From positions 1 through 41,533 of the IMG/VR virus record IMGVR_UViG_3300043444_000386: a DNA stretch of 41,533 nucleotides; one strand, written 5' to 3'. Under the pieces are notes generated by a model. The model worked only from the letters and a program-made list of their open reading frames with translations, ran no database searches and was not told the origin of the DNA. The stretch comes from a virus. Below, in pieces: positions 11,895 to 30,215 of this stretch. Both the position numbers and the translations under genes were made by a program. Each line of letters starts with the position of its first letter. Positions within the stretch are counted from its first letter, which is position 1.

Positions 11895-12086
11895 TCAGAT
11901 AAGGCCGGCGGCTTTCAGATTGGCCGCGCTTTCGGCAAACACCTTCAGCCGCTCAAGCTGTTTGAACAGATGAACGGAGTCCGGTTGCTCTTTGTTCAAG
12001 TGGTTGTTGATGTCGCCGGCAAGGTATTCGCCGATTGATTTGATGTCTTCCTTCATGGCTTTGCTAATGGTGTTCGCCGTATTCAC
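11895..12086 (-). CDS. Small helical hypothetical protein
   Basis: This 63-residue helical protein starts with GTG in a GTGA overlap with the dnaB stop (12083-12086), so it is probably translationally coupled to the helicase. It is charged, has no cysteine and no motif I recognise. A helper role in replication is possible from position alone. Confidence 0.65.
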   Translation of the reverse strand: MNTANTISKAMKEDIKSIGEYLAGDINNHLNKEQPDSVHLFKQLERLKVFAESAANLKAAGLI

Positions 12087-14671
12087 AGTTTCAGTCCCTT
12101 TCGTTCCTCTTCAAAAGCGGTTATGGGCCGATTGAACCACATGGTCAGCTTATCACGGCCTTCACCACGACCCTTGGCTTGAAGGATGTTCGTGTAAACT
12201 CGGCGCAAATCTCCATCGTTCAGGTCTTGGGTGCTGCCGTCCGGCAATCCGGTAGGGGCATGGATAAATATCACTCTGTCCGCATCTTGTTCGACATTCC
12301 CAGAGTTGTGAACTATGACCCCGTTGGCTACGAAGTTGTGATGCTCGGGCACAACCCGATCAAACACCGGACCGCCGGCCGCGCGCTCAATCTTACGCGG
12401 CTTGTCCCAGAATACGTCATCTCCGACAAGGCTTTGGATGTGCTCATTCATCATGCCTCTGTCCATGAGGTTCGCCCAAACCCGCATCAAGTCATCGTAG
12501 GAGATGCGCTTGCCTTGAAAGCGATAGCCGATTTGGGCATGGGTGAGTCCGTAGCGTTTCCTGATTGAGTCAACGAGCCGACCAACGCCTACGCTGAAGC
12601 GAGATCCGGCGATGTTGCTGGTCCGGGTTGAATCAACCTGACGCAGCAAGTCGCCCTTGCGGCCAATAAGCGGGATTTTGGTGGCAAACCGCGCCACTTC
12701 TTCGGCTACGCGTATAGAAACCTTGAAGCAGGGATGCTTTGCCCTTTTGCCCATGTATCCGGGCTCAATACTGGCATAGATGCCAAGGCGAAGGAGTGCC
12801 CAAACAACCTGCCATGCCATGTGCTCCGATGTGGTGGAAAAGGAGAGGCACGGGCGGGGCTTGAGCATGACGCACCCGTCCGTCTCCCAAAGGCCGGCGA
12901 TAAGCTCGGCAAGACTTTGGTTGTCGGCCGTCTCGCAGAACCACTGCGGGATGCGTTTTTCCCATGAACGGCGTCCCCACATGTCATTTTTCCGCATCCA
13001 GTTCGTCGCCGGATTCCCAAGGGATGTGCGAACAGGGTGCTTGGTAATGTCAAACTGCTGGACCTTTTTGCACTTGTGGCGGTGGGGTTTGGGGCAGAAT
13101 CCGAATAGCGCGTTTGTCTGGTTGCAGAACTCCTCGGCAACAACCTGGCATGAGGTGATGAACGAGGGCGACTGGCTGCCTACGCCAGACCCGTTGCCAA
13201 GCATCCACCCCATCCAGCGGCTTACGTGGAAGTATTCGCAGTTGCGGGGGGCGGGGATACGGCGGGCGCAGGCGATGGCGCTTTCCTTTGTGACGGCTTC
13301 GGCAAGCGTCCAGCCGTTGTCCGTCTTGATGGCGTGTCTCGGCGTGCAGGTGATGGTGCGACCACTCTGGAGCGTTATCCGAATCATTTCCGGCGCAGCC
13401 TCTCGGGGTGCATTTCGGCTTTCAGAGGCAACAAGCCGTCCGTCCATAGACAATCCGACGGTGGCGATGGGCGCCTCGGTGTTGCGCCAGATGCCTTGGC
13501 TGTTGAAGACGTAGGTGTCCTTTACGGAAAGGCACTCGCGGATGTCAGAAAGGCGAGGCTCGCGGTCTTCCTTCTCAACCCCTCGGCTAACCTGAACCAA
13601 GAGAAGCACGGGGATCTTCAAGTCAACGGCAATGTCCTTCAGTGCCATACTGAACCGGCCTATGGCTATGTCCCGCGTTTCCCCCCGCTCCTGCTGCGGA
13701 TCGTAGCGTTGCAGGTAGTCCACGATGATGGCCCGAATGGGCATAAGCTGCCGGCAAGCCTGAACGCGGGCCATAAGCTGTGAAAGCGTCCGGTCCTTGT
13801 CAAAAGCTAGGATGTTCGGGTTGCGTGACACGGAAGCCAAGGCGTCGTCAAACTCGTCCATGTCCTTGTCATGGAGCTTACGGTTGCGGTATTCCTTCCA
13901 TGACTTGCCGGAAAGTGCTTGGGCAAACAACACTGGAAGCCCTTCTACGGGCATTTCCCTTGAAAATAAGAGGATTTTGCCGCCCTTGGACCATTCCCAT
14001 GCCACTTGGCGGGCAACGCTGCTCTTTCCGCATCCAGGACGGGCTCCAAGCACCAGCAGTTCGCCGGCCTTGGCCCGCCCGAAACGGTTGTCCCAGTCTT
14101 GCCACCCCCACGAGATACCTTGATCTTCCTCGGTTAGCGGCTCGGAGCCCCGGATTCGGACGCATTGAGCCTGCGCCCCGACCGCCGCTTCGTTCAGCGT
14201 CAGGGCCTTTTGGGCGGCGTGCTGGATGGACAGGATGCGGTGGGTTTCGGAAACGAAGTCCTCGACGCTGCCGGAGTAGGCCAACGCCTTCTCGGCGGTG
14301 CGGGTGGCCGCCCCGTGAAGCTCACGGAGCACGTAAAGCTCACGCAGCCGGGCAATCCAGTAGTCGAGGTTCTTGCTGATGTCCTGACCGCTGGAGACGG
14401 CGGTAAGGGCCTCGTATCCGCCAATCTCTTCCAGTTTGCCGGCCTTTTTAAGCTCCTCGGCTAGCACGGCAAGCTCAACGGGGTGTCCTTGCTTGTGCAG
14501 CCAGCAAATTGACTTCCAGACCTTCTGGCAAACCGCGTCGTAGAAGACTTCCGGGGTAATTTTACCCTCGAAGCATTTGCAGAGGGCAGGAGCGCCGTCC
14601 AAGAGGACGTGCGTTATGAGGGCGCGTTCGCCTTCTTCGGAATGAGGCAGGGTTGTCTTAGTTTTGGTCAT
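12083..14671 (-). CDS. dnaB: Replicative DNA helicase DnaB interrupted by an intein
   Basis: The 862-residue precursor contains a 452-residue DnaB helicase split by a 410-residue intein. The N-terminal primase-interaction domain occupies about residues 1-150. The RecA-like motor has Walker A GARPGCGKSS (209-218), Walker B IIVDYL (315-320) and the helicase loop LSDIRE (374-379). The C-extein resumes with SGNVEQDAD. It unwinds DNA at the phage fork. No phage DNA polymerase or primase is visible, so it presumably recruits host enzymes. The start overlaps the upstream gene by four bases (ATGA), and the stop overlaps the next gene (GTGA). Confidence 0.96.
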   Translation of the reverse strand: MTKTKTTLPHSEEGERALITHVLLDGAPALCKCFEGKITPEVFYDAVCQKVWKSICWLHKQGHPVELAVLAEELKKAGKLEEIGGYEALTAVSSGQDISKNLDYWIARLRELYVLRELHGAATRTAEKALAYSGSVEDFVSETHRILSIQHAAQKALTLNEAAVGAQAQCVRIRGSEPLTEEDQGISWGWQDWDNRFGRAKAGELLVLGARPGCGKSSVARQVAWEWSKGGKILLFSREMPVEGLPVLFAQALSGKSWKEYRNRKLHDKDMDEFDDALASVSRNPNILAFDKDRTLSQLMARVQACRQLMPIRAIIVDYLQRYDPQQERGETRDIAIGRFSMALKDIAVDLKIPVLLLVQVSRGVEKEDREPRLSDIRECLSVKDTYVFNSQGIWRNTEAPIATVGLSMDGRLVASESRNAPREAAPEMIRITLQSGRTITCTPRHAIKTDNGWTLAEAVTKESAIACARRIPAPRNCEYFHVSRWMGWMLGNGSGVGSQSPSFITSCQVVAEEFCNQTNALFGFCPKPHRHKCKKVQQFDITKHPVRTSLGNPATNWMRKNDMWGRRSWEKRIPQWFCETADNQSLAELIAGLWETDGCVMLKPRPCLSFSTTSEHMAWQVVWALLRLGIYASIEPGYMGKRAKHPCFKVSIRVAEEVARFATKIPLIGRKGDLLRQVDSTRTSNIAGSRFSVGVGRLVDSIRKRYGLTHAQIGYRFQGKRISYDDLMRVWANLMDRGMMNEHIQSLVGDDVFWDKPRKIERAAGGPVFDRVVPEHHNFVANGVIVHNSGNVEQDADRVIFIHAPTGLPDGSTQDLNDGDLRRVYTNILQAKGRGEGRDKLTMWFNRPITAFEEERKGLKL
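12305..13534 (-). other. Intein in DnaB, with LAGLIDADG-type endonuclease domain
   Basis: The intein starts at C380 (first splicing nucleophile) and ends with H788-N789, followed by S790 as first C-extein residue. Block B has T443-x2-H446. Block F/G has HHNFVANGVIVHN. Between them lie two LAGLIDADG-like motifs: MGWMLGNGSG (487-496) and ELIAGLWETDG (589-599). The second keeps the catalytic Asp (D598), but the first has Asn (N493) where Asp is normal. Splicing looks intact, while cleavage may be lost or reduced. It interrupts the conserved DnaB stretch between RE and SG, near a known DnaB intein site. Confidence 0.93.
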
Positions 14672-27340: not shown

Positions 27341-27621
27341 AAAACGAAGTAGGTAAGTGGTATAAATACGAAGAGCTTGGCGACAAGGGCGATTTGTATG
27401 TGACACGGCACGCCGGGCTTATTTGTTTTGGCCTTTATTTGGGACGCGATCCCGGTGGTCGTGTTTGGTGGGGCGCAACGCCATACAGCCGCGATGCTGG
27501 GCTCCTTGTAGATGGGAGCCTTTGGTCGTCGGAACATGAAATGCTTTTTTTGAAGATCTGCGACAACTTGCCAATGAGCGAGGCTGATGCCCTTGGTGCC
27601 ATCAAAAAAGCACTTGTTTAA
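27337..27621 (+). CDS. Small hypothetical protein
   Basis: This 94-residue protein starts MKNEVGKWYKYEELGDKGDL in an ATGA overlap and ends in a TAATG overlap with the large terminase gene. It is beta-rich with many Trp/Tyr/Gly and a C-terminal helix. Unlike its upstream neighbours it uses ordinary codons, so it may be a separate insertion. Function unknown. Confidence 0.6.
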   Translation: MKNEVGKWYKYEELGDKGDLYVTRHAGLICFGLYLGRDPGGRVWWGATPYSRDAGLLVDGSLWSSEHEMLFLKICDNLPMSEADALGAIKKALV

Positions 27622-30215
27622 TGCTTACTTGGAAGAGACATGAGTTGTTGAAGCCTCCGACGGACGAGGAGGTGGCGTTGATGGAGCCGGAGGAGTTGCT
27701 GGCGGTCCACAAGGCTTACCACGAGTCGATAGAGAATGCGGAGCGTGACCCGTATCGGTTCGGGTTTGTCCTGGATCACTGGAAGCAGGGTGACTTCTGG
27801 TGGGCCAAGTATCGGACGCTGCTTCTTTTTGGGGCTAACCGCTGTCTTGCCGGCGAACAGGTTATCTACGACCCCGTAAAAGGAAAAGCCCTCCGAGTTG
27901 ACTCAATCACGGAGGGCTTTCATGTAACGGCCTACGATTTGGTTAACGATAGGTTTGTTACGGCAAAGGCTTTGCGGCCTTTTCAAAAACCAGCTCAGGA
28001 GTTGTTTGGTGTTTCTCTATCCAATGGAGAAACTCTATTTTGCTCGGCGGCGCATCTAGTCCTAACTCCTTCTGGATGGAAAGAAGTAGGTCAGCTAGCT
28101 GTTGGAGACTGCATTTGCGGGCAGCCTCAAAGCTCTTCAGAATCGCAGAAGCCCGTATGCGTGCCAAGCCAAGTGGCGTCCACTTCGGACATTGACCAAG
28201 AAGCGTTTCAGCCAAGTGCCTTGAGTTGGAGTCAAAAAGCTCAAGGTTCTCAATCCGATTGTCAGTCTTATCGTTGTTCTTGTGATGAACAACTTCGGTC
28301 GGCAGAAGATTCCTCCCGAGATGCTTCTCCATCACAAGGCGGTGCTCTTGGATGTATTTCTCCTTCCGGTAATACTTTCCATTTGCTTTCAGCCGGCGCG
28401 CCTCGTTCAGGCGAAGGCATTCGTGATGGTCTGGCGCCCAAACGTGAACGTAGCCATTTTTATCAAGGATTCGCCCGCCTTTCCATTGTGGGTGACCTTC
28501 TGCGGCGCGCGGCCCTCGGCGCTGGCACTTTATTCCGTGCTTTTTGCAAACCTTGGTCACGAGTTTACGGGTTATTCGCGGGTCCAGATTGGCAGAAAGA
28601 TGGCTGGCAATGCGATCTTGCGTCCATCCATCTGCAATCCACTTACGAATGTCCTCAACTGGATACTGAATCGAACTTGTTCTCATGCGGGGCTAATAAT
28701 ACCACACGAGTAAGCATTGTCAACATCTATTCGCTCCGCAACGATACCGTGTGGGATTTTGAGGTTCCCTATTTCCACAACTACGTATCCGCTGGAATCA
28801 TCTCACACAACTCGGGAAAGACGAGCTACGGCGCTCGGGCCGTGGTTAAAGCTGCCATTGAGAATGCCGGGAGCCTGATTTACTGCTTCAGCCAGACCGA
28901 GGAAACGTCTTTGCTTGTTCAGCAGCCAGCCATTTACCTAGCCCTTCCGGCTGAATTAAAGGTGAAACGGACGGAAAGCGTCACTCACATCAGCTACAGC
29001 AGCCAAAACGGCTTTACGGGGAATGCTTTGGTGCTTCCGAACGGCTCCCGAATCGTCTTCAAGTTCTACACGCAGTTCCAGCAGAACCAATCCATCCTTG
29101 AGGGCATGGAATTGGGCTGTCGTGACCCTCAGTTCATCAATATCGGGGCTTGGCTGGACGAGTATTTGCTGGGGATGGAGTTGGTTGACCGGCTTTATTT
29201 GCGTCTGGCTACCCGTAACGCCAAATTGCTCATCACCTTTACTCCGAAGGACGGCATTACGGAGACGGTTAAGTATTTCCTGAAGGGTTCAGAAACGGTG
29301 GAAAAGCGGGATGCGGAGTTGATGCGGGTTTTGCATGGCCGCAAGGACTGCGAAGTGCCCTACATCCAGAAGAACGAGGGCCGCAACACGGCTATCATCT
29401 ACTTTCACAGCAAGGACAACCCTTGGAGCGGCTATCAAACCATCGTAGAGACTTGTAAGAGCAAGGGAGATCCCGATTACACGCTGACGGCGGCTTACGG
29501 AGTGCCTACGGCCATGTTTGACACGCCGTTCCCCTGCTTTTCGACGGAAGTGAACGTGGTTAAGCCGTCGGACATGCCGACGAAAGGCATAACCCGTTAC
29601 ATGGTGCTTGATCCGGCGGGGCGGAAGAACTGGTTCATGGTTTGGATTGCGGTGGACGAGGACGGGACGTTCTGGGTTTACCGGGAATGGCCTGGCGTGG
29701 ATGTCGGGGAGTGGGCTGTGGAGAAAAACGGGCAAATGGTTGCCGGTTTGGGCTCCAAGGGGAAGGGATATGGCATCGGGGAGTATGTTTCCTTGATTCG
29801 GTCGCTGGAAAAGCTGCCCGGAGAGGTAATTCACGAGCGCATCATCGACCCACGGCTCGGGCAGACCAAGTATTTGAAGGAAAGCGGAGCCTCCTCCATC
29901 ATCGAAGACCTTGCCGATCAGGATATGGTTTTCATCCCTGCTCCGGCGCTGGACATCGAGGACGGTTTGCAGGCTTTGCAGACTAAGATGGCGTATGACC
30001 GCCGGAAGCGGCTCGATTCCATGAACCATCCGCACTTCTACATCAGCAACGAGTGCGAGAACACGATTGCGGCCTTGCAGCTCTACACGGGAGAGGGCGG
30101 ATATGAGGAGGCTTGGAAGGACCCCATCGACTGTCTGCGTTACGCTGCCATCACCGGCATTTACCACATCGGCGACAAGAAACCCCGTGTCATCACGGGC
30201 CAACGAGGATACTGA
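27621..30215 (+). CDS. terL: Terminase large subunit (packaging ATPase-nuclease) with intein
   Basis: The 864-residue precursor contains a 541-residue large terminase and a 323-residue intein. The intein sits inside Walker A: N-extein ends LLLFGANR (residue 74), C-extein starts SGKTSYGARA (398), together GANRSGKT. A likely Walker B is in INIGAWLDEYL. The nuclease domain begins at about residue 660 with MVLDPAGRKNWFMVW and has further Asp residues such as IIDPR and DCLRYAA. The protein pumps DNA into the procapsid through the portal. ATP hydrolysis, and so packaging, should need intein splicing first. Confidence 0.95.
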   Translation: MLTWKRHELLKPPTDEEVALMEPEELLAVHKAYHESIENAERDPYRFGFVLDHWKQGDFWWAKYRTLLLFGANRCLAGEQVIYDPVKGKALRVDSITEGFHVTAYDLVNDRFVTAKALRPFQKPAQELFGVSLSNGETLFCSAAHLVLTPSGWKEVGQLAVGDCICGQPQSSSESQKPVCVPSQVASTSDIDQEAFQPSALSWSQKAQGSQSDCQSYRCSCDEQLRSAEDSSRDASPSQGGALGCISPSGNTFHLLSAGAPRSGEGIRDGLAPKRERSHFYQGFARLSIVGDLLRRAALGAGTLFRAFCKPWSRVYGLFAGPDWQKDGWQCDLASIHLQSTYECPQLDTESNLFSCGANNTTRVSIVNIYSLRNDTVWDFEVPYFHNYVSAGIISHNSGKTSYGARAVVKAAIENAGSLIYCFSQTEETSLLVQQPAIYLALPAELKVKRTESVTHISYSSQNGFTGNALVLPNGSRIVFKFYTQFQQNQSILEGMELGCRDPQFINIGAWLDEYLLGMELVDRLYLRLATRNAKLLITFTPKDGITETVKYFLKGSETVEKRDAELMRVLHGRKDCEVPYIQKNEGRNTAIIYFHSKDNPWSGYQTIVETCKSKGDPDYTLTAAYGVPTAMFDTPFPCFSTEVNVVKPSDMPTKGITRYMVLDPAGRKNWFMVWIAVDEDGTFWVYREWPGVDVGEWAVEKNGQMVAGLGSKGKGYGIGEYVSLIRSLEKLPGEVIHERIIDPRLGQTKYLKESGASSIIEDLADQDMVFIPAPALDIEDGLQALQTKMAYDRRKRLDSMNHPHFYISNECENTIAALQLYTGEGGYEEAWKDPIDCLRYAAITGIYHIGDKKPRVITGQRGY
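27958..28686 (-). CDS. HNH homing endonuclease encoded antisense within the terminase intein
   Basis: The 242-residue product has an N-terminal helix-turn-helix (about 8-50, VEDIRKWIADGWTQDRIASH), a linker with GYVHVWAPDHHE, then YIQEHRLVMEKHLGR (111-125) and the HNH core with H134-H135 in VVHHKNN, N143 in DNRIENLEL and H157 in SNSRH. Residues up to about 190 match the usual size of such enzymes; the last 50 overlap, antisense, the splicing-domain coding and may be run-on. It should cut intein-less terminase genes and spread the intein. A promoter lies directly upstream. Its codon third base faces position 2 of the intein codons, so each frame constrains the other. Confidence 0.9.
   Translation of the reverse strand: MRTSSIQYPVEDIRKWIADGWTQDRIASHLSANLDPRITRKLVTKVCKKHGIKCQRRGPRAAEGHPQWKGGRILDKNGYVHVWAPDHHECLRLNEARRLKANGKYYRKEKYIQEHRLVMEKHLGRNLLPTEVVHHKNNDKTDNRIENLELFDSNSRHLAETLLGQCPKWTPLGLARIRASAILKSFEAARKCSLQQLADLLLSIQKELGLDAPPSKIEFLHWIEKHQTTPELVFEKAAKPLP
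28696..28723 (-). promoter_or_regulatory. Near-consensus promoter of the antisense HNH gene
   Basis: On the minus strand TTGACA (28718-28723, full consensus) is followed after 16 bases by TATTAT (28696-28701, 5/6), with TGG just before it as an extended -10. Only nine bases separate TATTAT from the ATG at 28686, so transcription would begin within about three bases of the start codon, giving a leaderless message. There is no ribosome binding site. The promoter lies within intein-coding DNA. Confidence 0.7.

Follow-up and report, generated by a model that had tools for sequence, protein, structure and literature searches.

The stretch of viral DNA analysed here, 41,533 nucleotides long and called the window below, carries an intein within its terminase gene, terL, and, within the DNA that encodes the intein, a gene for an HNH endonuclease that reads in the opposite direction. 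How is a gene so placed expressed, and by what signals? The arrangement is very probably this: a mobile intein at the Walker A motif of terL houses a separate, nested, antisense HNH gene that has its own sigma-70-type promoter, a leaderless start at ATG 28686 and a terminator that is a feature of the window's subgroup of relatives (Table 1).

Table 1. Positions of the terL intein, of the HNH gene on the opposite strand, and of the predicted signals for its expression
Feature	Position	Strand	Basis or remark
terL reading frame with in-frame intein, 864 codons	27621..30215	plus	exteins 27621-27842 and 28812-30215; alignment to relatives
Intein, 323 codons (C1 ... H322 N323)	27843..28811	plus	Intein_splicing 1.3e-9; alignment; fold match; empty sites
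Hint N-terminal splicing half, residues 1-95	27843..28127	plus	pLDDT about 97
Linker of the sense protein, residues 96-283, facing most of the HNH gene	28128..28691	plus	predicted disordered; stop-free
Hint C-terminal splicing half, residues 284-323	28692..28811	plus	its opposite strand holds the HNH promoter
HNH homing endonuclease gene, 242 aa	27958..28686	minus	HNH_3 1.8e-11; PHROG HNH families; frame selection; model pLDDT 88.6
-35, TTGACA	28718..28723	minus	opposite sense Hint-C codons Ile-Val-Asn; conserved in relatives
Extended -10, TGG-TATTAT	28696..28704	minus	hexamer 28701-28696
Predicted transcription start, G28688 or A28686, with leaderless ATG 28686-28684	28686..28688	minus	geometry and relatives
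Predicted intrinsic terminator of the HNH unit: 12-bp stem GAAAGCCCTCCG/CGGAGGGCTTTT, 14-nt loop, then CCTTTTACGG	27874..27921	minus	hairpin tests; close relatives

Together, terL and the intein form a single continuous frame of 864 codons that is nowhere split into separate ORFs, and the insertion point lies at the Walker A motif (...FGANR/CLAGEQ...IISHN/SGKT...). Among 30 aligned inteins C1, H71 and N323 are invariant, H322 is kept in at least 90%, and SGKT follows. The insert therefore displays the whole set of intein characters—Cys1, block-B His, penultimate His, terminal Asn, Ser/Cys/Thr at +1 and in-frame insertion—and its Hint fold is recognized both by the Intein_splicing family (1.3e-9) and by PDB mini-intein matches that reach 1.8e-7. 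In the AlphaFold2 model of the intein, residues 1–95 and 284–323 have a pLDDT of about 97, residues 96–283 mostly one of 33–45, and the confident part resembles solved mini-inteins in a fold search. Family searches with the sense protein, including Pfam, NCBIfam and PHROG, found no endonuclease family, and NCBIfam gave general intein-containing matches only. As modelled, the intein polypeptide has no endonuclease domain. Elsewhere in the window, an 862-aa protein (12083–14671, minus strand) has a DnaB-like helicase match that is confined to residues 1–379, the other half of the protein having no assignment.

The endonuclease is encoded on the other strand, antisense to terL and wholly within the intein-coding DNA. 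The HNH protein matches Pfam HNH_3 (PF13392) at 1.8e-11 and PHROG HNH families as well, and when relatives are aligned its core residues H115, H134, H135, N143, N147, N154 and H157 are invariant. Its AlphaFold2 model has a mean pLDDT of 88.6; a fold search with this model against the PDB returned I-HmuI as its top match, non-significant, and a PDB sequence search with the protein returned a single odd match, which we set aside.

Relatives with and without the insert point to mobility. The closest terL relatives (L288–L290, 91–92% protein identity) are without the whole 969-bp insert, and their alignment to the window breaks and resumes at the intein boundaries, a clean empty site. The phages PHS3 and AL, both reported on Pseudoalteromonas marina, are 95–97% identical around terL and differ by a 900-bp cassette, which PHS3 has and AL has not. 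With its HNH family membership, its catalytic core, and its presence or absence at one site between matching flanks, the gene has the marks of a homing endonuclease. The same site also harbors mini-inteins of 130–148 aa that have no HNH gene. In one of them (L210, 148 aa), TTGACA-17-TATACT and the Shine-Dalgarno sequence AAAGGAGG stand antisense ahead of what is only a remnant of the HNH gene, pointing to a fossil of HNH loss from the larger intein forms.

How general is the nesting? HNH searches of viral, genome and phage collections gave 116 loci with an assigned start, window included, and these fall into 50 clusters at 80% HNH identity. At every one of the 116 the HNH gene is antisense inside a long open frame, and the first base of each HNH codon faces the first base of a sense codon. 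The two Pectobacterium phages examined share both the nesting and this phase. At all 34 close loci the opposing frame is a match to the window's TerL; at the others it is mostly a terminase or an intein-containing protein, and at a few it is unassigned. Cultured carriers are Pseudoalteromonas phage PHS3 and the Pectobacterium/Dickeya phages Taid, Abuela, Setonix and their allies. Two contigs from bacterial assemblies, L122 (a Phycisphaeraceae MAG) and L165 (a bacterial MAG), likewise have an antisense HNH gene in a terminase-like frame with intein motifs; these are probably prophages or co-binned phages.

Judged by substitutions, selection is acting on the HNH frame, and the overlapped sense stretch is being kept open. 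In 23 pairwise comparisons of relatives, 639 substitutions fall at position 1 of the HNH codons, 498 at position 2 and 1363 at position 3, even though this last position is opposite sense position 2; in none of the 23 is HNH identity below sense identity. Sense stops across the HNH gene are zero at every locus, against means of 2–11 when the HNH gene is recoded synonymously. Two departures from the usual organization may be mentioned. L018 (and L078) has lost most of the N-terminal Hint half through an in-frame deletion that leaves both the terL frame and the antisense HNH gene open; splicing should be lost, which makes it puzzling how TerL works at these loci, unless the contig is misassembled. 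L027, L030 and L032 have a second intein-like insertion further downstream in terL.

Antisense nesting accounts for certain errors of annotation. In GenBank, the terL of PHS3 is truncated, starting only in the last part of the intein, and the HNH gene is annotated; in full, the terL frame continues across the HNH gene, which is on the opposite strand. The annotations of the Pectobacterium phages examined omit the HNH genes instead.

What drives the gene? On the minus strand TTGACA (28723–28718) is followed by 16 nt, TATTAT (28701–28696), 9 nt (TAGCCCCGC) and ATG (28686–28684), and the final bases of the 16-nt spacer are the TGG of the extended -10. This is the arrangement, between 28723 and 28684, that the original prediction had placed at the antisense HNH start. 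It matches the sigma-70-type consensus at 11 of 12 positions, with an extended -10 and a spacer inside the 16–18 nt range. The prediction had also called it the best such promoter in the window, and rightly so: with 16–18 nt spacing allowed, no other site on the two strands of the 41.5 kb reaches 10/12. By chance, dinucleotide-preserving shuffles give 2.54 sites per window at 10/12 and 0.08 at 11/12. Recoding the window's sense protein synonymously equals the score in 0.2% of draws (p 0.002). The remainder of the window (positions 1–41533, both strands) has no sigma-70-type site of at least 10/12, where chance would give 2.6; perhaps the phage avoids such sites or relies on other promoters.

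An in-frame TAG lies three codons 5' of the ATG, and so ATG 28686 is the earliest possible start of the HNH gene. At the usual spacing from the -10, the purines available as start points are G28688, which would leave a 2-nt leader, and A28686, which would leave none; this geometry agrees with the forecast that transcription begins zero to three bases before the ATG. No Shine-Dalgarno sequence precedes the ATG, again as had been claimed, although this is common in the window: among the gene starts of its long ORFs, only 6 of 39 have a Shine-Dalgarno-like sequence. Because the other 33 do without, its absence at the HNH gene is weak evidence for a leaderless start, and as proof of one we reject it. 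The scarcity itself suggests a host that largely manages without Shine-Dalgarno sequences.

Better evidence comes from relatives. For each cluster, the sense codons upstream of the HNH start were recoded synonymously with the codon usage of that locus's terL, and promoters were scored with a weight matrix of E. coli hexamer frequencies. Exact TTGACA occurs at -40..-33 in 15 of the 50 clusters, where 1.56 are expected under recoding. For the highest-scoring promoter within the 60-nt leader, the p combined over the 50 clusters is about 3e-23, a value that assumes independence and overstates promoter conservation, since the clusters are phylogenetically non-independent. The count of -35 matches fails to reach significance when all 50 clusters are combined (p = 0.10), because loci with Shine-Dalgarno sequences dilute the signal. 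The -10 hexamer is far less conserved than the -35, and the Pectobacterium phages have a good -10 and a weak -35. Mini-inteins without an HNH gene, considered as a control for loss of the hexamers, were set aside for that purpose: they number seven loci only, of which two still carry TTGACA, one of them along with an HNH remnant. Of the two hexamers whose persistence despite synonymous freedom was in question, the -35 is conserved and the -10 only poorly. By these comparisons the HNH promoter is conserved beyond what the sense protein requires; it is the -35 sequence and its distance from the ATG that are kept, and the idea of a promoter dedicated to the antisense gene is supported.

The clusters fall into two classes. 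In 22 of the 50 there is a -35 at -40..-33 and no Shine-Dalgarno sequence; in 16 there is a Shine-Dalgarno sequence and no -35 at that place; one has both, and 11 have neither, some of these being remote or having uncertain starts. The dichotomy is marked (Fisher p 5e-5, 50 clusters). Within the Shine-Dalgarno class promoter scores also exceed the synonymous expectation (combined p 4e-10, independence assumed), the promoter there being further upstream. PHS3 is of this class, and its HNH transcript is predicted to begin about 25 nt ahead of the ATG. Such a split is the pattern expected if the class without Shine-Dalgarno sequences starts transcription at the ATG, and it supports leaderless starts, that of the window included, much as had been predicted.

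The message might nevertheless not be leaderless: transcription could start elsewhere, or a longer leader could lack a Shine-Dalgarno sequence, as is the norm in this genome (33 of 39 genes), and many relatives do use a leader and a Shine-Dalgarno sequence. We regard this as unlikely. In the 22 clusters without Shine-Dalgarno sequences the -35 is 34–40 nt from the ATG, which fits a +1 at or next to the ATG, whereas in nearly all of the Shine-Dalgarno class the -10 is 26–44 nt from the start. A second doubt touches the promoter itself, for TTGACA is opposite a conserved Val-Lys/Asn pair, and the hexamers might be a by-product of the Hint-C protein (Ile-Val-Asn/Lys read as TTGACA) and no promoter at all. 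At single loci the exact -35 taken alone has a synonymous p of about 0.03–0.19, which leaves room for this reading; the excess of exact TTGACA over the number expected given the proteins, and the window's full promoter score, do not. TTGACA occurs, moreover, at two different Hint-C positions (IVK/IVN or DVKWD) with its distance to the ATG unchanged. Synonymous recoding leads us to reject the by-product reading as very improbable. Of equally slight probability is the view that the HNH gene is a degenerate relic, no longer expressed or active: loss of the gene has occurred in the family, as the mini-inteins and the L210 remnant attest, but here the catalytic-core residues, the intact frame and the codon-position bias are conserved, and no promoter in the window is better. 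The preferred reading, of a live gene with a promoter of its own and a leaderless start, has one further element.

Just 3' of the HNH stop, inside Hint-N codons, is a G+C-rich hairpin with CCTTTT after the stem, the hairpin and T run on the transcribed strand that characterize an intrinsic terminator. In the window it stands out from shuffles (z -3.8) and from synonymous recodings (p 0.001). Its loop of 14 nt puts it outside the limits of the standard scan, and the stem was not among the observations that accompanied the original prediction. Of 8 close loci, window included, 7 share the position of the hairpin (synonymous p 0.001–0.006 each), and the eighth, L077, has one with a 17-nt loop, just past the limit of the scan. 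Covariation is modest, its score being reached by 3 of 500 shuffles. In the wider family no clear terminator was found (combined p 0.99, 48 clusters), and we reject the hairpin as a feature of the whole family; it is confined to the window's subgroup. Promoter, HNH gene and terminator would make up a complete transcription unit inside the intein-coding DNA.

The terminator bears on another proposal, that antisense RNA from this promoter times or dampens terL. Being inside the intein, it should stop the transcript short of the 5' extein and leader of terL, and the idea loses force accordingly. That such control is the promoter's main role is the least probable reading of all, and we reject it as unsupported: the transcript would be the complement of some 0.8 kb of terL mRNA, but the HNH protein coding is under selection, the conserved terminator should end the RNA within the intein, and close cassette-free relatives do without any such control.

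How might the element work? What the sequences show is the nesting, conserved across relatives, with selection on the HNH frame and the sense frame kept open; a promoter more conserved than the protein demands; the terminator; and clean empty sites. Most probably, host RNA polymerase would make the HNH mRNA early, independently of the late terL transcript, and a 70S ribosome would start at the 5' AUG of the leaderless message. The HNH protein would cut intein-free terL alleles at the Walker A codons, and repair would copy the whole cassette, intein and HNH gene together, into the cut allele. The intein, for its part, would splice itself out of TerL, so that packaging still works.

Several known systems come close. 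HNH_3 homing endonucleases are usually free-standing or intron-borne; the window's protein resembles them in its Pfam match, core residues and predicted fold, and differs in being nested antisense in an intein. Dassa et al. in 2009 reportedly described 'fractured genes', in which the two parts of a split intein are separated by a free-standing endonuclease gene. There, as here, a separate endonuclease gene comes between two Hint halves, but host gene and intein are in separate ORFs, whereas the window's frame is continuous and its endonuclease antisense. The TerL1 inteins of mycobacteriophages have their endonuclease as a domain of the intein polypeptide (PMC5050341). They share with the window the TerL ATPase P-loop site, conserved splicing blocks and a sporadic distribution with empty alleles; in the window the endonuclease is instead encoded apart, antisense and under a promoter of its own, and the middle of the sense protein is predicted to be disordered. 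The ShiLan element, described as actively homing, has its HNH gene concealed in a different frame of a methylase and lacks a splicing domain (PMC11855218). That gene uses the third frame, begins at a GTG 18 bp into the insert and would, as proposed there, have the host transcript as its message; neither a promoter nor antisense reading is mentioned in the paper (PMC11855218). Both HNH genes overlap an open host frame, have no Shine-Dalgarno sequence and are proposed to start leaderless, but the window's insert has a complete Hint domain and its HNH gene is on the opposite strand. Leaderless mRNA translation is known for lambda cI (PMC4965119). The predicted HNH start is similarly at or next to the 5' end of its transcript, with no Shine-Dalgarno sequence; unlike that of cI, it is only predicted, and its promoter is inside another gene's codons. 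Among the papers examined we found no published case of an antisense endonuclease gene in an intein; possible precedents, judged by title, are Gorbalenya 1998 ('Non-canonical inteins') and the preprint of Gosselin et al. 2025 (actinobacteriophage inteins, 'non-canonical architecture').

It seems likely, then, that this is a widespread and previously undescribed architecture of tailed-phage terminase inteins, in which an autonomous antisense endonuclease gene has its promoter, its start and, in some members, its terminator in the opposite strand of splicing-domain codons and its expression is uncoupled from the late host gene. The relatives amount to over a hundred natural examples, in bacterial viruses, of a fully nested antisense gene under selection. 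PHS3 and AL, with and without the cassette, are a ready, cultured pair for experiment, and the antisense gene offers a direct test of leaderless starts in phages that are largely without Shine-Dalgarno sequences. If we have read the situation correctly, a selfish element expresses its endonuclease earlier than, and separately from, the essential late gene that it occupies, and the information for doing so would be hidden in synonymous positions on that gene's other strand.
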